A DNA stretch of 64,000 nucleotides, taken from NCBI GenBank assembly GCA_022729735.1, contig DZAY01000002.1, positions 83,340 through 147,339 of the forward strand, written 5' to 3'. The position numbers and the translations under genes are program-made. Positions 46,204-59,746 of this stretch are shown one piece after another. Under the pieces are notes generated by a model. The model saw only the letters and a list, made by a program, of their open reading frames with translations. It had not been told where the DNA came from and did no database searches. Source of the stretch: Helicobacter cetorum. Lineage in GTDB: Bacteria; Campylobacterota; Campylobacteria; Campylobacterales; DZAY01. The stretch's first letter is position 1; each line of letters starts with the position of its first letter.

Positions 46204-48537
46204 ATGTTAAATGGTAAATCTATATTTGCTGGGTTATTGGTATCTGTTGCACTATTGAATGCACAAACAATAGATGTAACAAATAATTGGAAATTAGTTG
46301 GTGCAAAGTGTGATATTGATGTAAAAAGTGAGTTAAATTCTACATTAGTTAAACAAGTTTATCTATATGATAATTTTAATGGCAAAGCATCTTGGAAGGT
46401 TTTTAATAATATTACAGATTTAAATGGTGATATTGGAGACCTTGTAACTATTAAAGCTGGACAAGGTTTTTGGATTTTAGGTAGTGAAGATGGAACTGTA
46501 AAAATTGATAAATCAGATGTTAATGAGCTTTTATCAATTTCAAATGGTTGGAATTTGCTTGGTGCAATTGGTGATATTAAACTATCTTCTATATTTAATA
46601 CAGATGATAAAATAGGAGCTGTTTGGAAATATGATAACAAAAGTGGTTGGCTTTTTTCTAAAAAAGATAATCAAACTTTTGATGATATAAAAGCTGGTGA
46701 AGGTTTTTGGCTATATTCAGGAACAGAAGATATTAATATTCAGAACTTAAAAGATATTGAAAATAATTTTATTCCAAAAGGAATGTCATTAGTTACAACA
46801 GAACCTTTAATAGATATGGATTTTGAAACAGAGTTAGTAATTGATGCCAAAAATGAAGCAAGAGGAGTTGGAGTTAGTCTTGTTTTTGTAGAAAAAAAAG
46901 ATGGTGATGATAAAGTTGAACTTCAATCAATTTTAGATGATAAAAATAGATTAAAATATAGTGTTCAAACTAATAAAATTGATATAGAAGCTGGTGAGCA
47001 TAAATATAATTTAAAAGCAAAAATACCTTCTAATGTATCAGCATTAACTGATTATATTGTATATGCGATTATAGACCCAAGTGAGAGTTATAAAGAGAGT
47101 AATGAAAATGATAATAATAACTTTGATATTGTAAAAACAGATTCAAATTTGGTTGTAGCATTTGATTACAATTACGATAAAGCCATTATTACTAATGCTT
47201 TAAATATTTCAGATTATATTTTAGAAAAATCTCACAACTCTATATTAATTACAGATGAAAATTACACTTTTAGTGAATATTTAATTGGTGGAACATTTAG
47301 TGTAGAAATTAAAGATAGAGAAAAATTAACAGATACATATTTATCAGCTTGTCTTGAAATTGGTGATGAGTGTCATAAAATAGATATTTGGGATAGCACT
47401 CAAAATAGTTTCCAAAAAAACTATTTAGTTAAAATTCCAGAAAGAGCAGAATTAAAAGATAATGAGATTTATGAAGAGAGCAAACACTACTTATATGCTG
47501 AATTTGTAGTTTCTGAAGATATTTTGGCTAAATTAAAAGAGAGTGTAATTAAGAGTGAAAATGTTATAAATGGTTATAAACATTTAGATAGTAAGCTTAG
47601 AATTACTTTAAGTGAAGATGAGGTTGTAGAATATACAGATACAAATTCAATTACAAAAGATATTACACTCTACTATAATGATACTCTTCAAACAAGGGGA
47701 ATTATTTCAACTATTGCAAACTTTAATAAAAACTATGACAAATCAGTTATTAATGATTGGGTTGGTTCAACAACAAATGTAATGATAGATAACTTTAATA
47801 ATCAAAAAGAGAGTTATCAATCAATTCAAATAGGTTTAAAAGCAACTAAAATTGCAAATTGGGAAGGTGGAGTTTTATCAAATCATAGCTACTCAAAACT
47901 TGATAAAACTACAAAAGCTATAAAAAATGAGACAACTACACAACTAACAGGTTATACAGTCCATCATCTTGATGGAACAAGCTCAACTATGGAGTTACAA
48001 AAAGTTTTATTTAAAAAAACATTTGTAGATAGAGAGTTTCAATTTATGGTTTCAATTGTTCCAGTTGGAGTTGGTATTGCTTCTGAAGGTAGTGTAAGTA
48101 TGGGATTAAAATCTACAATAATTCCAACAGCTCAAGTTGAATTTATGGCAACTCCTGAAATTGATAGCTCTGTAAGTGCAAGAGCTTATATTGGTAGAGA
48201 AATAAATATTGGTGTTGGTAAGCTTCAAGCAAGTGCTGGAATTAGTGGTTCTTTAGAGCCATTTGTAAATTATAAAACACCTTCATCATTTACAAATATT
48301 TTTGATAGTAGCAAAGCTGGAAGTGGTTATACATATTACAAATCATCTATTAAACTTGACCAAGAGATAGAAACAGTCAAAGGTTCTATTAGTGCTTATG
48401 TTTCTGGTGGAGTATGTGCTAAATGGCTTGGTTGTGCAGATTGGAGTGCTTCAGCTGGAATTACTTCGTGGTCTGGATATAGCTCAAATTCTAATCTATT
48501 TAATAAAGTTTTGGGAGAAGGAGATATTAAAAACTAA
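46204..48537 (+). CDS. Exported GWN/GFW-module protein with CARDB-like and beta-rich C-terminal regions
   Basis: 777 aa with signal peptide MLNGKSIFAGLLVSVALLNA. Two GWN/GFW modules follow: residues 28-93 (NNWKLVGA to KAGQGFWIL) and 114-172 (NGWNLLGA to KAGEGFWLY). Residues 190-315 look CARDB-like (VYAIIDPSESYKESNENDN). Residues 320-520 are unassigned. Residues about 540-777 are Gly/Ser/Ala-rich beta (GVGIASEGSVSMGLKST, EINIGVGKLQASAGISGSLEP) with two close Cys in VCAKWLGCADW. First gene of the operon; 5 bp to the next. Weak resemblance of the last region to beta sheets of lipid-transfer proteins is inference. No catalytic motif visible. Confidence 0.62.
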   Translation: MLNGKSIFAGLLVSVALLNAQTIDVTNNWKLVGAKCDIDVKSELNSTLVKQVYLYDNFNGKASWKVFNNITDLNGDIGDLVTIKAGQGFWILGSEDGTVKIDKSDVNELLSISNGWNLLGAIGDIKLSSIFNTDDKIGAVWKYDNKSGWLFSKKDNQTFDDIKAGEGFWLYSGTEDINIQNLKDIENNFIPKGMSLVTTEPLIDMDFETELVIDAKNEARGVGVSLVFVEKKDGDDKVELQSILDDKNRLKYSVQTNKIDIEAGEHKYNLKAKIPSNVSALTDYIVYAIIDPSESYKESNENDNNNFDIVKTDSNLVVAFDYNYDKAIITNALNISDYILEKSHNSILITDENYTFSEYLIGGTFSVEIKDREKLTDTYLSACLEIGDECHKIDIWDSTQNSFQKNYLVKIPERAELKDNEIYEESKHYLYAEFVVSEDILAKLKESVIKSENVINGYKHLDSKLRITLSEDEVVEYTDTNSITKDITLYYNDTLQTRGIISTIANFNKNYDKSVINDWVGSTTNVMIDNFNNQKESYQSIQIGLKATKIANWEGGVLSNHSYSKLDKTTKAIKNETTTQLTGYTVHHLDGTSSTMELQKVLFKKTFVDREFQFMVSIVPVGVGIASEGSVSMGLKSTIIPTAQVEFMATPEIDSSVSARAYIGREINIGVGKLQASAGISGSLEPFVNYKTPSSFTNIFDSSKAGSGYTYYKSSIKLDQEIETVKGSISAYVSGGVCAKWLGCADWSASAGITSWSGYSSNSNLFNKVLGEGDIKN

Positions 48538-48542
48538 TACTC

Positions 48543-50330
48543 ATGAAGAGATATTTATACTTTTTTGTAACTCTTATACTTTTAATTGGTGGTTATTTTA
48601 TTTATAACCACCAACAAAATCAAAATAGTTTATATAGCTGGAATAGAGAGAAAAATCAAATTTATGAGTTTTCTCTCAAAACTAAATTTATAAAAAATAG
48701 TGAAATTAGTTATCTATTAGAGCTTGATGGAAATTTACTTTTTAGAGTTTTTGATATAAATAGCACAAATGTAAAAGTTGGTTTTGAATTAAGCTCTTTA
48801 GATTATGTTTCAAATGGTTTCAAAGATAGTGATTATGCAAAACTTTTATCAAAACCATTTTTAGCAATTTTAAATAAAAATGGAAACATGTTGGAGTTTA
48901 TTTTTCCAAACTCTTTATCAAACGAAGATACTATATTATTAGAAAAAGTTATTAGGAATTTTGAAACAACTGTGCAAATGGATAACTTATATAAAGTAAA
49001 AGAAAAAGATTATGTGGGTGAATATATTGCTGAATATTTGAGAGATTTTAATACTATTTCACGAAAAAAATTGGATTATACAAAAGATAATAGTAAAAAC
49101 TTTTTATTTAATACAAAACTTAAAATATCTAAATCTTTAACAACTATTAAAATAGATGAGAATAAAAATTGGATTTCTGAATTTAAATTGGAAGAGAATG
49201 GAAAAATAGATGGAGCTTTTTTAAACTCAAATTTTGAAAATTTTGCATATTTAAAAATAACTAAACATGATAGTAATTTTAATAGTTTTGAAATATTTAA
49301 AAATATAACTTTTGAAGAGTTTGTAAAAGAGTTTCAAAATGAAAAAAAAGCAGATATTTCATATCATAAACAGAGAGAGTTAGATATTAAAAAAGTTAAT
49401 ATTAAAAATAGTAAAGTAGATATTTTTGATTTAATTTCAAAATTAAAATATGCTTTAGATAATAATAAAAATTTAATGGCAATTGAAGCTGAAATAGCTG
49501 AATTTTTGACACTTTTTCCAGAATATTTAGAAGAGATAGAAAAATTAATATCTAATAGAGAAAGTGATAATTTAAATTTAACTCTCATTCATATTTTGGA
49601 ATTGAGTGGTTCTGACAAAGCTCAAAAATCGCTTTTAAAAATTTTAGATGGAACTAACTTTAATCATATTGATAGTGTTAGGTCTGCAATAGCTTTGGGT
49701 GGGATTAAAAATCCAACAAAAGAGACTATAAATAAAATGTTTGCAATTTATAATAACACATCAAAAGCAGATACAAATGGAGTTGAAAAATCTGGAAGCA
49801 CAATTATGGCTTTGGGAATTATGAGTAAAAATATTGAACATAAAGATAATATTTATAAGTTTTTAGATGAAAAATTAACTTCAACTTCAAATCAATCTGA
49901 ATTAGTAAATACAATTTATGCTATTTCAAATACAAGAAATAGTCAATTTGTAGAAAGTTTATCAAAATTTGTAAAGAGCGATAGTGAAGATATAAAAAAA
50001 GTTTCATATGAAGCATTGGGTGAGTTAAAAAGTGTAGAAAGTCAAAATTTATTAAATAGTGGTTTGCAAAATGAGAGTTCAACTATTATAAAAAGTGCTA
50101 TTTTAAACTCTGTATCTAAATATAATAATAGTAGTGAAAGTTATGAAATTATAAAATCAAAAGTTTTGACAGAAGAGTCAAATACGATAAAAAATAAGAT
50201 GATAGATTATATGTCAAAAAATATAGAAAATAGAGATGAAACTATAAAAGTGTTTAATGAGTTACTAAAACAAGAAAATTCAAAAGATAATATAAAATTG
50301 ATGTTACAAACTATTAAAGAGAGTAAATGA
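48543..50330 (+). CDS. Membrane-anchored protein with beta-rich N-domain and HEAT-like repeats
   Basis: 595 aa. One N-terminal hydrophobic segment (YLYFFVTLILLIGGYFIY) acts as signal or anchor. Residues 32-270 appear beta-rich, starting YSWNREKNQIYEFSLKTKF. Residues about 300-595 are helical repeats like HEAT/armadillo (SVRSAIALGGIKNPTKETI, KKVSYEALGELKSVESQNL). The order, N-terminal beta sheet then helical superhelix, is that of vitellogenin-N/large lipid transfer proteins, but that comparison is structural guesswork. It is the only operon member without a GWN/GFW module. Overlaps the next gene by 4 bp (ATGA). Confidence 0.6.
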   Translation: MKRYLYFFVTLILLIGGYFIYNHQQNQNSLYSWNREKNQIYEFSLKTKFIKNSEISYLLELDGNLLFRVFDINSTNVKVGFELSSLDYVSNGFKDSDYAKLLSKPFLAILNKNGNMLEFIFPNSLSNEDTILLEKVIRNFETTVQMDNLYKVKEKDYVGEYIAEYLRDFNTISRKKLDYTKDNSKNFLFNTKLKISKSLTTIKIDENKNWISEFKLEENGKIDGAFLNSNFENFAYLKITKHDSNFNSFEIFKNITFEEFVKEFQNEKKADISYHKQRELDIKKVNIKNSKVDIFDLISKLKYALDNNKNLMAIEAEIAEFLTLFPEYLEEIEKLISNRESDNLNLTLIHILELSGSDKAQKSLLKILDGTNFNHIDSVRSAIALGGIKNPTKETINKMFAIYNNTSKADTNGVEKSGSTIMALGIMSKNIEHKDNIYKFLDEKLTSTSNQSELVNTIYAISNTRNSQFVESLSKFVKSDSEDIKKVSYEALGELKSVESQNLLNSGLQNESSTIIKSAILNSVSKYNNSSESYEIIKSKVLTEESNTIKNKMIDYMSKNIENRDETIKVFNELLKQENSKDNIKLMLQTIKESK

Positions 50331-52648
50331 GATATTTATCAATTTTTTTTATATTTATTAATTTTTTATTTGGGTTTGATTTAAATGAGTTTGCAAAAGA
50401 TGTTGCAGATAAAAGTTATATAGAAATAGATATAAATAATACAAAAAAGCGAGTAAATATTCAACTTAAAAAAGGTTGGAATTTAGTAAATTTACCACTA
50501 TATGAGATTATTAGAGATAAGAAAAGATTTGGTGATTATAAAGCTATTTGGATATATAAAAATGGAGAGTATATAACTCCTAAATATCCAAAAGCTGGTG
50601 AGCCTTTTTGGATTTATTCAAATAGTGATATAGAAATAGAAAATATTGGTAGAAGTTATAATATAGATTTATCAGCTCTTCCAATTGGTTGGAATATAGT
50701 TGGAAATGGAAGTGAAATAAGTAGTATAGAAATAGAAAACTACTCAAATATTTATTGGGTTTATAGAGATAATGGATATATAAAAAATCCATCAATAATT
50801 TATCCTAACGAAGGTTTTTATATAAAAATAGATGAAGAGTTAAAAGCTCTCAATTCATCAAAAAAAGATGAGATTGTAGATTTTAAAAGTGCTTTTAATT
50901 ACAATTTTTCTGATATAAAAAAAGATAAAAATAAAAAATTAATAATCTTATATATGGTTGGAAGTGACCTTGAGAGTTCATATAAATCTGCAACAAAAGA
51001 TTTAATTGAACTTAGCGATGGATATAAAAGTTTAACAGAAGCTCAAAAAAAAACAGTAGAAATAATAGTTGTTTTTGGTGGTTCAAAAGCTACAAATTGG
51101 AATGGACTACACATTGCTTCAATTGAAGATATATTAAGAGATAGTGAAAATAAAAAATTTGGTGATGATAAATATCTATTTAGTGATGAAAAACTAAATA
51201 TGGGAGAAATAAATACACTTACAACTTTACTAAAAGAGTTAAAAAATTTTGATGATTATAAAAGCAAAACTATCATATTTTGGAATCATGGTGGAGCATA
51301 TTTTGGATATGGAGATGATAATAATTTTAAAGATAAATTGACAATTGAAGAAATTGAAATTGCTTTTAAAAGAGCTGATATGAGTTTTGATATGATAGGT
51401 TTTGATGCATGTTTAATGGCAAATTATGAAGTTGCAACTATTTTAAAACCATATACAAAATATTTAATTGCTTCAGAAGAGACAGAACCAGGACATGGTT
51501 GGAATTGGGAATTTTTAATTCAACAATTTTCAAAAGATATTGATTTAGAAAGTTTTGGAAAAAGTGTAATTGATAATTATGTAGATGATAAAAATTATAA
51601 AACTGTAAAAAAAGGCAAAACTCTTTCAATGATGGATTTAAGCCATTATGATGAGTTGGATAAATCCATAAATAGTGCTACATCTCTTATATTGGATAAA
51701 TTAAAAAGTTCTCAAGATGAGTTAAATAATTTAGCTTTTGCTGTTGAAAATGGACAAAAATTTGGAGCAGTTAAAGGTAATGAAGATGGTGTTAGTGTTG
51801 ATTTAAAAGATACAATTCAAATACTTAATACAAAAACAGCTAATAGTCAATTAAAAGATGAATTAAAAAAGATAAATAGTAATTTTGAAAAAATGGTTAT
51901 TTACTCTAAAACAGATGGCACAAGAAGTGGCTCTTATGGTATTTCTATATCTCCATTAAATAAGTTAATATCAATTGCTAAAAATATAGATATATCTACA
52001 AGTGATGGTTGGTTAGAGTTATCTCATGAATATACAAAAAATATTATAAATTCAAGAAGTATAGATATAGCAGATAACTCCATTGTAGCTACTAAAACAT
52101 CTTTTGGAGCAATATTGGAAGAAATATTTATTTTACTTGGTGAAGAAGAGAAAAATTTAAATGAATTTTCTAAATGGAATGGAAAATGGTTTTATATTGT
52201 AAATTTGTCAAATGGCACTGGAATTCCACTTCCACTTTTTGAGTATGACACAATTGGAGATATAAAAATATATCGTTCTCCAATAGATTTAAATGATGAA
52301 GCGCATGTTTTAGATTTGATATATGATGAAAAAAATAAAAAAGTTATATCTTATAGTTTTATACAAGTTTGGTTTGATGATGGTTGGCAATTAAGAATGG
52401 ATAAAGAGTATAAAAATATAAATGATGGTGATAAAATCTCAATTACAGCACCAATTATAGAACCTAAAACATATAAAACTTTGGATTCTATGTGGCTTGG
52501 AGATATAAATGTAGAAGCAGAAGGCATATATATTGATAAATTTAGTGTAGATTACTTTGGTGATATTGCTACATTAGGAGAGTTGATATATTCAAAAGAT
52601 AGTAAAGGCAATATAAATATTATTGAGTTTAAAAAAGTTAATGAATAA
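50327..52648 (+). CDS. Exported clostripain-family (C11) cysteine protease with two GWN/GFW modules
   Basis: 773 aa. Signal peptide MRYLSIFFIFINFLFG. Two GWN/GFW modules at 49-97 (KKGWNLVNLP to GEPFWIY) and 120-167 (IGWNIVGNG to NEGFYIK). The C11 catalytic domain spans about 200-600: LIILYMVGSDLES, His321 in FWNHGGAYFGYG, Cys362 in IGFDACLMANYEVA, then ASEETEPGHGWNW. The His-Cys dyad is intact. The C-terminal 600-773 is beta-rich (KWFYIVNLSNGTGIPLP). Clostripains prefer Arg/Lys; here specificity is unknown. Adjacent exported proteins are natural substrate candidates. Confidence 0.85.
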   Translation: MRYLSIFFIFINFLFGFDLNEFAKDVADKSYIEIDINNTKKRVNIQLKKGWNLVNLPLYEIIRDKKRFGDYKAIWIYKNGEYITPKYPKAGEPFWIYSNSDIEIENIGRSYNIDLSALPIGWNIVGNGSEISSIEIENYSNIYWVYRDNGYIKNPSIIYPNEGFYIKIDEELKALNSSKKDEIVDFKSAFNYNFSDIKKDKNKKLIILYMVGSDLESSYKSATKDLIELSDGYKSLTEAQKKTVEIIVVFGGSKATNWNGLHIASIEDILRDSENKKFGDDKYLFSDEKLNMGEINTLTTLLKELKNFDDYKSKTIIFWNHGGAYFGYGDDNNFKDKLTIEEIEIAFKRADMSFDMIGFDACLMANYEVATILKPYTKYLIASEETEPGHGWNWEFLIQQFSKDIDLESFGKSVIDNYVDDKNYKTVKKGKTLSMMDLSHYDELDKSINSATSLILDKLKSSQDELNNLAFAVENGQKFGAVKGNEDGVSVDLKDTIQILNTKTANSQLKDELKKINSNFEKMVIYSKTDGTRSGSYGISISPLNKLISIAKNIDISTSDGWLELSHEYTKNIINSRSIDIADNSIVATKTSFGAILEEIFILLGEEEKNLNEFSKWNGKWFYIVNLSNGTGIPLPLFEYDTIGDIKIYRSPIDLNDEAHVLDLIYDEKNKKVISYSFIQVWFDDGWQLRMDKEYKNINDGDKISITAPIIEPKTYKTLDSMWLGDINVEAEGIYIDKFSVDYFGDIATLGELIYSKDSKGNINIIEFKKVNE

Positions 52649-52675
52649 TTTATTTTGATTGTTTGGAGTTTTGTT

Positions 52676-55600
52676 TTGAAAAATTTATTATATATATCTA
52701 TTTTTATCGCTATTTCACTGTTTGCAGATATTAATTCTGGAATTGTTAGTTATTATAATTTTAATTCTAATGCAAATGATAGTAGTGGAAATCTTTATCA
52801 TGGAGTTTATAACAATTTTACAAATGGTAAATATGATAACTGTGCAACTTTTAATGGCACTAATAATAGTATAGAAGTTTCATCAATTTCTGGTGAAAGT
52901 AATCAAACATTAACTATTACTGCTTGGATTTATTTAACTGGCACAACAACAAGAACAGTTTTAATGAAAGGCTCTTATGGTTATGGAGTAGCTATTAATG
53001 ATAGTGGAAAGCTAATATATTGGATTGATGGAACTCAAGTAAATGCAAAACAATCAAGTGCAACTATTCCCACAAATCAGTGGGTTCATATCGGTGTTGT
53101 TGTAGATGATACCAAAGATATATTAACATTTTATATAAATGGACTCAAAGATAGCACTCATAGTGGAGTTGCTATTGATACCAAAAATGGAGAAAGTCTT
53201 TATATTGGAAAGCAAGGTAGTTGTGATTGTAACTACTTTAGTGGAAATATAGATGAGCTTAGAATTTATAATAGTGCTTTAAGCTCTTTAGATATTAGAG
53301 AACTTGCTCTTTATTATCCAAATATTACACACTATAAAGATATAAGTTTAAATAGTTTAAGAAAATTTAAAAATATATCTTTAGGAGATAATCATACAGT
53401 TGCCATTGGCGAAGATGGGACTTTATGGAGTTGGGGAATAAATAGTAGTGGGCAATTAGGTGATGAAACTACCATTTCTAAAAACTATCCAGTTAGAATT
53501 GGAAGTGATAGTGATTGGAATAAAACATCTTCAAGAAACCATCATACATTAGCTATAAAAAACGATGGAACTCTTTGGGCTTGGGGAATTAATAGTAATG
53601 GTCAGCTTGGAGATGGAACTAATACAAACAAAACTTCACCAACAAAAATTGGAACAGATAGTGATTGGATAGATATATCAGCTGGAGAAAATTTTACACT
53701 TGCATTAAAAAGTAATGGAACTCTTTGGGCTTGGGGAATTAATAGTGGCAATCAATTGGGTGATGGAACTACAACTTCAAAAAATGTTCCAACTCAAATA
53801 GGAGTTGATACAAATTGGCGATATATTTCGGCTGGTGCTACACACTCTTTTGCTATCAAAAATGATAATACACTTTGGGGTTGGGGAGCAAATGGAGCTT
53901 ATCAACTTGGTGGTGATGGCACAAATGTATCCAAAACAGTTCCAACTCAAATAGGTGTAGCTAGTGATTGGAAGATGATTTCTGCTGGTGGTGAATACTC
54001 AATGGCAGTCAAAACTAATGGCGAACTATTTGGATGGGGAACAAACTATTATGGAAGACTTGGATTTGGTGATGAAAATGCAAGAAATAGCCCAACCAAA
54101 AGAGGAACTGCAACAAATTGGAAAAGTGTTTCTACTCATACATATCATATTTTTGCAATTAGAGAAGATGGAACAATTTGGGCATCTGGTTCAAATACAA
54201 GTGGTCAGTTAGGAAATGGTGAAGATGTAGAAAAAAATACCACAACTATTCAAGTTGGAAATGAAAATAATTGGAGTGAAATCAAAGTCAGCTCTGGACA
54301 TACAGCTGGTCTTAAAAGTGATGGAACTCTTTGGCTTTGGGGACATAATAGTAATGGAAAGTTGGGTGATGGAACATCTACAAAAAGCAATTTACCAATA
54401 TTAATAGGTGCAATTAGTACTATAAATGGAACAAACTCAAATGATAATTTAGTTGGGAGTGAGTTTTCAGAAATTATAAATGGTAGTTTAGGAGATGATA
54501 TTATAAATGGATTGGAAGGAAATGATACAGCAATATTTAGTGGAAATAAATCAAACTATATTCTTACAAAAAATTCAAATGGAACTTATACAATTACAGG
54601 CAGTGATGGTGTAGATACACTTCAAAATATTGAATATATTAGTTTTGATGATATTAAAAATATAGATATTAATAGTAATGATAAGCACTTAAAATATAAA
54701 TTTGGTTCAAAATGGACTATTTCTGATAATGGAGAGTATATTTCAATAAATGATTGGAATATCTCTAATGCTCAAGTAGAAGATATTGAAAGCAATGTAA
54801 CTATTCCAACTAATGCAACAATACAAGTATATGATAGTAGTAACAGTTTAAAATTAAGTGGAAATTTAGCTGATGGCGATTATGTAAGAGTTGTGGCTGA
54901 AAATAGTGAAATAAGAGATTATAAATTTTATGGAGTTATTCCACAAGTAAAAGGTGGTGATAACTTTAGTTTGATATTAAAAAATGGAAAACTTTATAGT
55001 GTCGGAGCAAATAGCTACGGACAGTTAGGACACGGGAATAGCTTAAATCAAAACAGTCCAAAACATATTGAAGTAACTGGTGAAAATAATATTACAGCTA
55101 TTGCAACTGGATGTTATTTCTCTTTAATTCTTGATAAAGATGGCAAAGTTTATGGATTTGGAAATAATCAATATGGACAGTTAGGACAAGGAAATACAAC
55201 AAGTTTAAATATTCCTACTCAAATTATGATAGAAAATAATATTACAGCAATAGAAGCTGGATGTTACAATAGTTTATTATTAGCAAAAGATGGTAAAGTT
55301 TATAGTATAGGTGATGGAAGTGTTGGACAATTAGGAATTGGCATTGAAGAAAACAGAACAGTTCCAACTCAAATATTAGAAGCTGGAGAAGGAAATATCA
55401 CAGCTATTTCAACAGCAAGACAACACTCATTAATGTTGGACAAAGATAATAAAGTTTATGTTTTTGGTAATGGTGGTTATGGAAAGCTTGGGCTTGGTGG
55501 AGACTATTCAAATAGATTAAGTCCAACACAAATTTTAAGTGCTGGAGAAAATAATATAACTGCTATTGGAGTTGGCGAGTTGCACTCTTTTTTGATAGAT

Positions 55601-58600
55601 AAACAAGAGAGAGTTTATAGTTTTGGTTATAACTTATCAGGAGAGCTAGGACTTGGAGATACAACTTTAAAAAATATTCCGACACAAATTACAACAATTG
55701 GCGAAAATAATATCTCTTCTATCTCAAATGGTGGTGGAAGTTTTTTACTTATTCTTGATAAAGATAAAAAGTTATATGGCACAGGATTAAATAGTTATGG
55801 GCAGTTAGGTTTAGGAGATTATGCAAATAGAAATAGTTTTTCACAAATTTCAGAAGCTAAAGAAAATAATATAACAATTTTGGGAAAAGGTAGAGAACAT
55901 AGTTTAATAATTGATAAAAATGGAAGTGTTTATAGTTTTGGAAAAGGATTAAATTCGCAACTTGGACATTGTGATGATTTAAATAGAACCGTTCCAACTC
56001 AAATTGGTTATCAAGATGGTTGTTTTGTTAGAGATTTTAGTCCGTATCTTACAAATTTCAATCTTTCAAATACAAATTTAAATGAGTTAAATATTACAAA
56101 TATTCAGTTAGTTGGTTTAGATTTAAATAGTTCAAACTTCTCACTTAGTCAAACTTTTATAAATGGTGATAATAATATTAGCTCATATAGTCCAAACTTG
56201 GATAAGAGTTTTGCACTAAAATTTGATATAAATGGCTCAAAATATTGGTATAACTTTGATGATTTTAAATTATATTCAGATAGAACACCAACATCAGATT
56301 TTTTGGTTTCAAACTTAATAAATCAAACATTAACAATATATTTTGCAAATTTGCAAATAGTAAATATAAATCCAAAAGTTTGGAATATTGGAAGTTTAAA
56401 AACAGGACAAACTACGAGCTATATAAATTATGATGATGGATATTATAAAAAAGGGCTTGATAGAAATTTTAGTAGAGCTAATGAGATAGTAATTGACAAT
56501 ATTACAGGGCTTATGTGGCGAGATGATATAAACTCTTCAACTACTACAACCAATTGGAGTGATGCAAATTTAACTTGTGAAAATATGTTTTTTTATGGAT
56601 ATGATGATTGGCGATTACCAAGTGTTGAAGAGCTTTTTACAATTATAGATTTAAATTCAAGTCATGTAAATAGTAATCCAATATTTGAAAATAAAACATC
56701 TAACTATTGGTCAATTACCTCATATTTACCAAATACAGATAGAGCTTGGTATATGTCAAATGGTTTTATAATATCTGCTGATAGTTATAAAACTGATAAT
56801 AAGTCATTTAGATGTGTAAGAGGAGATAGTAATCAAACTATACTTTTAAGTCGTGATAATATAAAAGGGACTATTTTAGATGATATTACTAAATTGATGT
56901 GGCAAGATAGTAGTGATGTTAACGAGAGTAAAAGAGATTTTAATAGTTCTATTAATTATTGTGAAAATTTAGTTTATGCAGAATATAGTGATTGGCGATT
57001 GCCAAATAGATTTGAGTTACAAACTATTGTTAATTATAATAATGCTATGCCATCTATTGATGAAACAAAGTTTAACTATACAAAATCTGATATATATTGG
57101 ACATCTACATATTATGATTTAAATCAATCACAAACTATTGGTATTAAGTTTGATGCAGGTAAAAGTGTTAATGAAGATAAAAATCTCCAATATTATACAA
57201 GATGTGTAAGAGATGATACTCCAACTATTTTTTTTAATTTTGTTGATTTTAATATATCAGAATTAAATGTTACAAATGTGATAATTTTTGGAGTTGATAA
57301 AAACTATACAATTCATAATTTAGATTTAGCAAATAACTTAAATTACACGATAGAAATTGATAAATTTGATGAGAATTTTAGTTTTAAAATAGAAACAAAA
57401 AAGGCTGAAATTTTGAACAGTTGGTTTTATAATTTTAGTGATAATAAACTATATCCAGAAATTAATAGTTCTATAAATTTTCAAAGTGAAATCAACTCAA
57501 CTAATAGAGTATTTAATATTAATTTAAATTATAATGATTTTGTTTATTATAAATTTGGTGGAAATGTAGTTGAAAATGATAACAATATAACAACTCTAAT
57601 ACTTAGCACAACCATAAATAGTGTTATTATTGATTATGAATTAAATCTAAACTCAACAAATTTTGAATTCAATTTAAGCTCATTTGGAAATTATAGTTTA
57701 AAACTTATAAAAGATAATAACTTAACATTTTATTATGATTTTGTAAGTGGTGATATTTATGAAACGGCAATAACAAGTTATACAAATATAACTGAATCAA
57801 ATTTAAGTGCAGATTTCAATTTATCAAATCTAAAATTTATAACATTATCTTCTTCAAGTAACTCTTCAATTGGTGAAAGTTCATCAAGCTCTTTTAGTAG
57901 TGAATTTATTAGTAGTCAATCAAGTTCATCATCAAGTTTAAGTAGCTCTTCTTTTAGCAATGAAAGCTCATCTTCTACATCAATAAATAGCTCTTCTAAT
58001 AGTTCAAGCTCTATAAATACTGCTCCGATTTTAGAGCAAAATTTTACAAATATAATTAAAGATATAAATTTTGATGAGTTTAATATAAGCTTACATGGCA
58101 TTAATGATTTTAATTATGATGAGTTAAATATAACAGTTGAAACAGATATTAATTCAATAGTTACAATTACTCCAAATTGGTCAAATCCATTAAACCATGA
58201 TAGCTATTATAATAAAGATTTAAATTTTACAGTTTCACCAATTTTTAATAGTTTTGGAAATGTTAAAATAAATATTTTTATAAGTGATGGAGAGTTTATA
58301 ATTTCAAAAGAGTTTAATATAACTATAAATCAATTAATAAGTTCATCATCAAGTAGCAGTTATTCAAGCTCTTCTACTATAACTTCTTCAAGTTCATCAA
58401 GCATATTTAGCAGTAGTTCAAGTAGCAGTTACTATTATGAGCCAATTTATCAAGAACCAATTTATCCAATGACTGATACAAATATAATTACAGAAGATAC
58501 ATCAGTTGTCATTGTTCCAATAAATGGTATCGTAAGCACAGAAATTGATGGAAGTAAAAAAGTTACAACAACTACAAGGGTTAATAATTTAGTAATAGAT

Positions 58601-59746
58601 ATTATTACAAATATAAATTTAGCTGGTAATATAAATACAGATATTTTGATAAAAAGCGATGATGGAAATAGTTATAAAACCACTATTGAGATACCAAAAG
58701 GTTCTAAAACAGAATATCAAAATGATAGTATCATACAGAGTTTTAAAAATTCAACTATAAAAACATCATCTCTAAATGGAGAATCTAATATAGAATATAA
58801 AGAGATTGGTAGTAGTGTCAAGATAACTACACCAATTGGAACAAAAGTATCATTAAATAGTGATGGAGATATAGTTACAAAAACAGAATTTAAAGATTTT
58901 TCACCTGAAAGTTTAGTTGAATTATCAATAAACAGTGATGATAATATAAAAAAGGTGCTTATTAACTCTAAAAATATAAATTACAGTGTCAGTTATAGTG
59001 ATATAAAAGATTTAGAAATTTCATATACAAAAGATAGTGATGGTGAGTATAGATATGTCAATGCAAAGTTTCAGACTGATAAAAAATATACTCTATTTCA
59101 AAAAGTTAATAATAATAGAGATACTTGGTTTGGAAACAGAATTGAAATTCTACCACGAGGTATATATGCGAAGTTTGAAGAGATACAAGAGTTGAATGGA
59201 AAACGAGTTGTAAAATTAATAGATGGTAGTGCATCAATAGATTATTATGATAATCTATTAGAAATGGAAATTGGAAAAGAGTATCTATTGCCACCATCAA
59301 TGGAGTTTGATGATAATAATCAAACAAATAATATTAATATGGAGCCTATTTTTAAAGATAATATTTTAAATTTAAAAGATGGTTGGAATTTAGTAGCAGT
59401 TCCTCTAAATCAAGAAATTTTTAAAAGAGAAAATATAGATGAATTGGAGATATCGTGGTTATATAAAGATGATGAATGGATTAGAAATCCTCTTGTTTTG
59501 GTAAAAGGCTACGGTTTTTGGTTAAAAATGGCTAATAATTTTAATATAAAATTTGAAGGTAAAAAATATCTTCCAAATTTTGAGAAATTAAAATCTGGTT
59601 GGAGTATGATAGGCACAGGGGATACATTAGTAAATATTCAAAAAAAAGAGAATTTAGAAGTAGTTTGGCTATATGTGAATGGTGATTGGATTAAAAATCC
59701 AGCATATATTTATGAAGGTCAAGGTTTTTGGATATTAAAAAGATAA
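52676..59746 (+). CDS. Giant exported multidomain protein (LamG, 2 x RCC1 blocks, RTX-like, 2 x DUF1566, GWN/GFW)
   Basis: About 2,356 aa from a TTG at 52676 with GGAG seven bases upstream; the track's earlier TTG (52655) lacks one. Track numbering: signal peptide to about 24; LamG-like domain 28-218; RCC1 block 1 (238-585) with seven units such as IKNDGTLWAWG; RTX-like segment 590-630 (SLGDDIINGLEGNDTAIF); RCC1 block 2 (765-1125), also seven units; DUF1566 domains about 1282-1386 and 1409-1516 (TGLMWRDD, YDDWRLPS, RCVRGD); Ser-rich linkers about 1731-1788 and 1895-1926 around a cadherin-like domain; beta region; two GWN/GFW modules 2240-2363. No autotransporter or C-terminal sorting motif recognised. 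Probably surface adhesin or scaffold. Confidence 0.8.
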   Translation: MKNLLYISIFIAISLFADINSGIVSYYNFNSNANDSSGNLYHGVYNNFTNGKYDNCATFNGTNNSIEVSSISGESNQTLTITAWIYLTGTTTRTVLMKGSYGYGVAINDSGKLIYWIDGTQVNAKQSSATIPTNQWVHIGVVVDDTKDILTFYINGLKDSTHSGVAIDTKNGESLYIGKQGSCDCNYFSGNIDELRIYNSALSSLDIRELALYYPNITHYKDISLNSLRKFKNISLGDNHTVAIGEDGTLWSWGINSSGQLGDETTISKNYPVRIGSDSDWNKTSSRNHHTLAIKNDGTLWAWGINSNGQLGDGTNTNKTSPTKIGTDSDWIDISAGENFTLALKSNGTLWAWGINSGNQLGDGTTTSKNVPTQIGVDTNWRYISAGATHSFAIKNDNTLWGWGANGAYQLGGDGTNVSKTVPTQIGVASDWKMISAGGEYSMAVKTNGELFGWGTNYYGRLGFGDENARNSPTKRGTATNWKSVSTHTYHIFAIREDGTIWASGSNTSGQLGNGEDVEKNTTTIQVGNENNWSEIKVSSGHTAGLKSDGTLWLWGHNSNGKLGDGTSTKSNLPILIGAISTINGTNSNDNLVGSEFSEIINGSLGDDIINGLEGNDTAIFSGNKSNYILTKNSNGTYTITGSDGVDTLQNIEYISFDDIKNIDINSNDKHLKYKFGSKWTISDNGEYISINDWNISNAQVEDIESNVTIPTNATIQVYDSSNSLKLSGNLADGDYVRVVAENSEIRDYKFYGVIPQVKGGDNFSLILKNGKLYSVGANSYGQLGHGNSLNQNSPKHIEVTGENNITAIATGCYFSLILDKDGKVYGFGNNQYGQLGQGNTTSLNIPTQIMIENNITAIEAGCYNSLLLAKDGKVYSIGDGSVGQLGIGIEENRTVPTQILEAGEGNITAISTARQHSLMLDKDNKVYVFGNGGYGKLGLGGDYSNRLSPTQILSAGENNITAIGVGELHSFLIDKQERVYSFGYNLSGELGLGDTTLKNIPTQITTIGENNISSISNGGGSFLLILDKDKKLYGTGLNSYGQLGLGDYANRNSFSQISEAKENNITILGKGREHSLIIDKNGSVYSFGKGLNSQLGHCDDLNRTVPTQIGYQDGCFVRDFSPYLTNFNLSNTNLNELNITNIQLVGLDLNSSNFSLSQTFINGDNNISSYSPNLDKSFALKFDINGSKYWYNFDDFKLYSDRTPTSDFLVSNLINQTLTIYFANLQIVNINPKVWNIGSLKTGQTTSYINYDDGYYKKGLDRNFSRANEIVIDNITGLMWRDDINSSTTTTNWSDANLTCENMFFYGYDDWRLPSVEELFTIIDLNSSHVNSNPIFENKTSNYWSITSYLPNTDRAWYMSNGFIISADSYKTDNKSFRCVRGDSNQTILLSRDNIKGTILDDITKLMWQDSSDVNESKRDFNSSINYCENLVYAEYSDWRLPNRFELQTIVNYNNAMPSIDETKFNYTKSDIYWTSTYYDLNQSQTIGIKFDAGKSVNEDKNLQYYTRCVRDDTPTIFFNFVDFNISELNVTNVIIFGVDKNYTIHNLDLANNLNYTIEIDKFDENFSFKIETKKAEILNSWFYNFSDNKLYPEINSSINFQSEINSTNRVFNINLNYNDFVYYKFGGNVVENDNNITTLILSTTINSVIIDYELNLNSTNFEFNLSSFGNYSLKLIKDNNLTFYYDFVSGDIYETAITSYTNITESNLSADFNLSNLKFITLSSSSNSSIGESSSSSFSSEFISSQSSSSSSLSSSSFSNESSSSTSINSSSNSSSSINTAPILEQNFTNIIKDINFDEFNISLHGINDFNYDELNITVETDINSIVTITPNWSNPLNHDSYYNKDLNFTVSPIFNSFGNVKINIFISDGEFIISKEFNITINQLISSSSSSSYSSSSTITSSSSSSIFSSSSSSSYYYEPIYQEPIYPMTDTNIITEDTSVVIVPINGIVSTEIDGSKKVTTTTRVNNLVIDIITNINLAGNINTDILIKSDDGNSYKTTIEIPKGSKTEYQNDSIIQSFKNSTIKTSSLNGESNIEYKEIGSSVKITTPIGTKVSLNSDGDIVTKTEFKDFSPESLVELSINSDDNIKKVLINSKNINYSVSYSDIKDLEISYTKDSDGEYRYVNAKFQTDKKYTLFQKVNNNRDTWFGNRIEILPRGIYAKFEEIQELNGKRVVKLIDGSASIDYYDNLLEMEIGKEYLLPPSMEFDDNNQTNNINMEPIFKDNILNLKDGWNLVAVPLNQEIFKRENIDELEISWLYKDDEWIRNPLVLVKGYGFWLKMANNFNIKFEGKKYLPNFEKLKSGWSMIGTGDTLVNIQKKENLEVVWLYVNGDWIKNPAYIYEGQGFWILKR
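57845..58017 (+). repeat. Ser-rich linker tract 1
   Basis: In-frame low-complexity Ser codons (AGT/TCA/TCT mix) encode SSSSFSSE-type sequence. Varied codons mean the tract is kept at the protein level rather than by simple DNA slippage. Confidence 0.8.
58339..58432 (+). repeat. Ser-rich linker tract 2
   Basis: Second Ser-rich stretch (SSSSSSSYSSSST) ending in YYYEPIYQEPIYP, a Tyr/Pro linker into the C-terminal beta region. Confidence 0.8.

Follow-up and report, generated by a model that had tools for sequence, protein, structure and literature searches.

Do two adjacent genes of a bacterial genome encode, in two pieces, a relative of the large lipid transfer proteins (LLTPs), by which animals load and transport lipid? 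The question is raised by a gene pair contained in the window, i.e. the whole stretch of 64,000 nucleotides analyzed, which belongs to a Campylobacterota-type genome of 2.5 Mb. A preliminary description had assigned to protein 2 the domain order of the vitellogenin N-terminal module and MTP, and had proposed that the end of protein 1 supplies the sheets of a lipid cavity. A literature search retrieved no paper describing a bacterial LLTP; the papers found describe animal LLTPs. The analysis reported here leads to a reading in which genes 1 and 2 would encode an obligate two-protein lipid module of the cell envelope, acting as carrier or loader, to which a probability of about one half is assigned, the periplasmic location, the complex, its lipid cargo and its cavity being inferred.

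The gene pair and its locus

Genes 1 and 2 are followed, on the same strand, by two further genes:

46204..48537, + strand: gene 1, intact ORF of 777 aa, proposed partner of protein 2
48543..50330, + strand: gene 2, intact ORF of 595 aa, LLTP N-module-like protein with a single N-terminal membrane anchor
50327..52648, + strand: gene 3, peptidase of the clostripain family (C11) carrying two GWN/GFW modules (Pfam Peptidase_C11, 6.5e-47)
52655..59746, + strand: gene 4, surface-type protein of 2363 aa with Laminin_G_3, RCC1 repeats and C-terminal GWN/GFW modules

The gap between genes 1 and 2 is 5 nt, the ATG of gene 3 overlaps the end of gene 2 by 4 nt, and no terminator-like sites were detected by scanning the region between 45900 and 52800. 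Because of this tight packing on the + strand, with gene 3 starting within gene 2, genes 1-4 look like one operon.

Gene 4 contains 12 RCC1 stretches, along with the Laminin_G_3 domain, Ser-rich linkers (SSSSS) and an RTX-like stretch falling just under cut-off. Proteins 1 and 4, both secreted, could be processed by the C11 peptidase that gene 3 encodes. Genes 1, 3 and 4 have in common paired modules, each some 75 aa long (GWNLLG/GWNLVN ... GFW; positions 46260-46760, 50420-50900 and 59430-59746); they match no named Pfam domain, and similar modules are found in long ORFs of other genomes of the order (G004, G023, G052). They may be tags for adhesion or for sorting to the surface.

Homologues were searched in two overlapping samples, comprising 397 genomes of the class Campylobacteria and 399 genomes of the order. 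Both samples returned the same three relatives of gene 2, indicated as G018 (E 1.8e-23), G356 (1.2e-14) and G054 (2.8e-8); the loci of two of them belong to MAGs of Nitratifractor sp. and Sulfurovum sp. A scan of genome contigs with protein 2 alone detected nothing, the same scan with alignment A3 detected only the two loci already known from these MAGs, and no relatives of gene 2 were found on plasmids by tblastn. Further apparent relatives, in G374 (RecJ), G480 and G000 (an MFS-HEAT protein), turned out to be spurious.

In all four genomes (4/4) gene 2 is immediately preceded by gene 1 or its homologue, the two genes overlapping or being at most 14 nt apart. The profile of the gene 1 C-terminal domain was found in 3 of 249 genomes, always with gene 2, and, being built from gene 1 proteins, it could miss remote solo copies. 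The linkage implied by the suggestion of a two-gene system is thus borne out.

Such linkage may also be read as that of a surface-protein export or anchoring module, formed by the operon with its clostripain peptidase and RCC1/LamG giant protein, in which any involvement of lipid is incidental. The modules common to genes 1, 3 and 4 within one operon are in line with this possibility, but the other three gene 1/gene 2 loci lack genes 3 and 4 and keep genes 1 and 2 paired, and the possibility is considered very improbable. A role as a defense system was discarded, as PADLOC gave only weak generic HEAT-ARM matches and stray ones.

Protein 2 and the N-terminal module of LLTPs

Three regions were distinguished in protein 2:

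48546..48623, + strand: N-terminal membrane helix, aa 2-27, the hydrophobic N-terminus being kept in 4/4 homologues
48660..49073, + strand: N-sheet-like region, about aa 40-177, with strands, PF...NG.....F, a helix and E....G.....Y
49311..50321, + strand: HEAT superhelix, about aa 257-593, recognized by HEAT_2 (Pfam), AF2 and hhalign

No lipobox was found in the N-terminus; a hydrophobic helix of this kind indicates that protein 2 is probably anchored to the inner membrane, with its body in the periplasm. The sequence YSWNREKNQIYEFSLK corresponds to residues 31-46. Strands are predicted by AF2 at residues 40-47, 61-72, 76-88, 106-111, 116-120, 150-153 and 161-177, and the same model contains the membrane helix (2-27) and helix pairs spanning residues 257-593. 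E154, G159 and Y165 are invariant across the four homologues, as are E453 and N463, which are aligned to the E...L.al.N.g motif of LLTPs. The chain ends, at residue 595, directly past the superhelix, and the C-terminal A and C beta sheets are absent from it. The ORF, the AF2 strands and helices and the HEAT_2 match all agree with the layout originally described, a beta region including YSWNREKNQIYEFSLK followed by a HEAT superhelix.

Searches starting from the window protein alone lead to HEAT repeats. HEAT_2 is above cut-off in its helical half, single-sequence searches of Pfam, NCBIfam and PDB returned only HEAT, with Vitellogenin_N going undetected, and comparison with PDB sequences, even as a profile, returned only alphaRep and HEAT proteins. 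These results favor the main rival explanation, according to which protein 2 would be a generic HEAT protein anchored in the membrane, a chaperone or scaffold whose beta N-domain is unrelated and which assists the folding or export of protein 1 with no lipid role, and any resemblance to MTP would reflect merely the beta-then-HEAT order. Each of the four homologues likewise has a HEAT_2 match above cut-off.

The homologues extend the picture. Among the 397 Campylobacteria genomes, Vitellogenin_N (PF01347) exceeded its curated cut-off of 24 in two, in both cases on the gene 2 homologue (29.1 bits in G018 and 37.6 in G356, covering the helical part of the profile at 300-581 and 348-536), and it was silent on every other gene of these genomes, which argues against a generic HEAT signal. 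With hmmscan, G018 scored 24.6 against the cut-off of 24 and G356 was not listed, its 37.6-bit match not being reproduced; for this reason the Vitellogenin_N evidence is to be regarded as suggestive and borderline.

The four bacterial homologues were then compared, as a profile, with four LLTPs (lipovitellin 1LSH, MTP, apoB and honeybee vitellogenin). The parts of the reference sequences that entered the comparison were checked against PDB, except for the 1LSH segment past residue 617 and the last part of honeybee vitellogenin. For the helical part, hhalign gave a probability of 95.8%, E 7.5e-9 and a score of 67.9; as a yardstick, MTP compared with the other three LLTPs scores 61.9. Generic HEAT controls reach 29 against LLTPs, a value in favor of the generic reading, and the window protein 2 alone scores 21.

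In a comparison free of HEAT repeats, restricted to the N-regions (residues 28-260 in the window protein), the score was 23.3, against at most 18.7 in 300 of 300 column shuffles. The alignment is in register, the order PF..x..G.....F, helix, E....G.....Y being shared by the bacterial and LLTP families, and this result, obtained with no contribution from the helical repeats, speaks against the generic explanation. Omission of apoB raised the score up to 29.8 (E 0.0018) in the same register; omission of the honeybee protein, MTP or G356 reduced it to 15-17, inside the range of the shuffles, and with only three LLTPs the comparison gave 13.9, which is not significant. As the addition of honeybee vitellogenin raised the score, the outcome is sensitive to the choice of reference proteins. 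The hhalign probability for the N-region is only 2-15%, no signal arises in this region when bacterial sequences are compared singly with LLTPs, and the strand order fits the LLTP N-sheet in a model of low pLDDT. Known LLTPs score 64-99 among themselves in this region, which makes the bacterial proteins clearly more distant.

The AF2 model of protein 2, built on a 3-sequence alignment, has a mean pLDDT of 63.5, with values mostly of 80-94 in the HEAT half and mostly of 22-66, much of it at 22-50, in the N-region; the low confidence of the latter is a further point for the generic reading. When the model was compared by Foldseek with 350,542 PDB chains, ranks 1-3 were all occupied by the MTP large subunit (8eoj_B, 6i7s_G, 6i7s_H), with E values from 1.3e-6 (8eoj_B) to 5.7e-6 over 627-647 alignment columns. 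The overall fold is thus closest to that of an LLTP, at TM-scores of only 0.27-0.38 and an rmsd of about 18 A, the low TM-scores being attributed to the poorly modeled N-part. MTP ranks above every designed or natural HEAT/ARM protein over the full length of protein 2, a result against the generic HEAT explanation, which is considered rather unlikely. A BFVD fold search gave no match at E 0.001.

Taken together, the Foldseek ranking, the Vitellogenin_N matches of two homologues and the register of the HEAT-free alignment sustain the proposed vitellogenin-N/MTP domain order. The expectation that only generic HEAT hits might emerge holds for the window protein by itself, but not for the family profile and the two homologues, which reach LLTPs and Vitellogenin_N. 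Homology between the protein 2 family and the LLTP N-module is therefore held to be probable, short of proof.

Protein 1, the linked partner

Protein 1 begins with a Sec-type signal sequence, followed by two GWNLLG...GFW modules at about aa 20-185 and, at about aa 200-480, by regions of Ig/CARDB-like beta pattern; the Gly/Ala/Ser-rich C-terminus extends over about aa 590-777. No Pfam domains were found in it. Its C-terminal region is the one most relevant to the proposed partnership:

47509..48534, + strand: gene 1 C-terminal region, aa 436-777 (profile A8), with a conserved IPV/VPV....G motif and an AF2 pLDDT of 30

Residues 600-777 contain 34% Gly+Ala+Ser, against 18% in the rest of protein 1 and 16% in protein 2, a level which is not unique, being matched by Ser-rich parts of gene 4. 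The Gly/Ala/Ser-rich composition of this end is thus as previously noted; its beta character comes from a very low-confidence model, in which strands of 11-16 residues are placed at about residues 593-683. The AF2 model of protein 1 as a whole, with a pLDDT of 30, is uninformative as to the fold, so that of the two predicted structures only that of protein 2, closest to MTP despite its low-confidence N-part, contributed to the comparison.

The C-terminus of protein 1 was compared with the A and C sheets of LLTPs in many set-ups, and no sequence match was robustly above shuffles. One match of the window protein to lipovitellin, reached by 0 of 40 shuffles, was lost in other set-ups and was discarded. 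With these comparisons and this model, protein 1 is a putative supplier of the lipid-cavity sheets, and the part of the two-gene proposal that is borne out is the linkage.

The gene 1 proteins differ widely: the window protein is very diverged, its best C-terminal match being that with G054 (E 0.012), while G018 and G054 match each other at 1e-19. In the Nitratifractor genome (G054), the gene 1 homologue ends with an alpha/beta hydrolase domain (PGAP1 and DUF676 above cut-off, GHSMGG). This lipase-fused gene (L008:5385-9197), which immediately precedes the gene 2 homologue, provides a lead to a lipid function. The start of its product, LLFVTAC, is lipobox-like and suggests an outer-membrane-type lipoprotein. 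In the Sulfurovum MAG, a second gene 1-like copy is found upstream of the intact pair (L009:13482-15452), split into two ORFs, one of 316 aa and one of 337 aa, which share about 50% identity with the intact gene 1 homologue; it is a duplication that may be decaying.

A proposed lipid module of the envelope and its animal counterparts

The lipid cavity of LLTPs is lined by beta sheets, around which amphipathic helices are arranged (PMC9219001). Computation supports the relationship of protein 2 with the LLTP N-module, as well as the adjacency and co-occurrence of the pair. As the chain of protein 2 stops after the superhelix, the cavity sheets must come from elsewhere, and protein 1, which is exported, has a beta-rich C-terminus and is obligately linked, is the favored supplier, as the only consistent candidate. 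Protein 2 would act as an LLTP-type N-module, made of N-sheet and superhelix, cradling or loading protein 1 in the envelope, and the two proteins would hold lipid between them; alternatively, protein 1 may receive its lipid from protein 2 in the course of export, in the way apoB does from MTP. The more specific form of this reading, a split bacterial LLTP in which an anchored N-sheet/superhelix half and an exported beta-sheet half build one envelope lipid cavity, is put forward tentatively, as somewhat doubtful.

A division of labor like that of MTP and apoB could also be envisaged, with protein 2 as a complete loader by itself, protein 1 as its lipidated client and no shared cavity. Gene order and obligate pairing suit this arrangement, and PMC3337244 presents the animal LLTP MTP as a chaperone for making apoB lipoproteins; unlike MTP, protein 2 ends at the superhelix and lacks C-terminal lipid sheets, and the arrangement is judged distinctly improbable.

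Should the split-LLTP reading be true, the architecture of vitellogenin, MTP and apoB would not be confined to animals. A bacterial relative in two parts, coupled to a secreted beta protein and in one case to a lipase, would offer a simple system in which to study lipid loading by these proteins, be informative as to how the superfamily arose and represent a new candidate route for lipid across the Gram-negative envelope.

Compared with known systems, protein 2 shares with the MTP large subunit (8EOJ, 6I7S) an N-sheet-like beta region followed by a helical superhelix; MTP is its best structural match across the whole protein, and the bacterial helical profile is as near to LLTPs as MTP is. MTP differs in that one and the same chain includes the C-terminal lipid-binding sheets, and in having PDI as partner, whereas protein 2 ends after the superhelix, is membrane-anchored and has another beta-rich protein as partner. 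Lipovitellin and vitellogenin (1LSH, 9ENR) have in common with the bacterial proteins the N-sheet motif order PF..G..[VIL]...helix...E..G.x...Y and the superhelix motif E...L..L.N.G, and two bacterial homologues pass the Pfam PF01347 cut-off; in contrast, the bacterial proteins carry Tyr or Val in place of the G-x-C cysteine, DUF1943, DUF1944 and VWD were not found in them, and the window protein is below Vitellogenin_N detection. With bacterial HEAT_2 repeat proteins and alphaRep designs the four homologues share HEAT_2, which is above cut-off in them, but such proteins possess neither an N-terminal beta domain nor a gene 1-like partner. Set against these systems, the rare gene pair suggests, short of proof, that bacteria may have a lipid carrier made of two pieces and belonging to a type that has been studied in animals alone.
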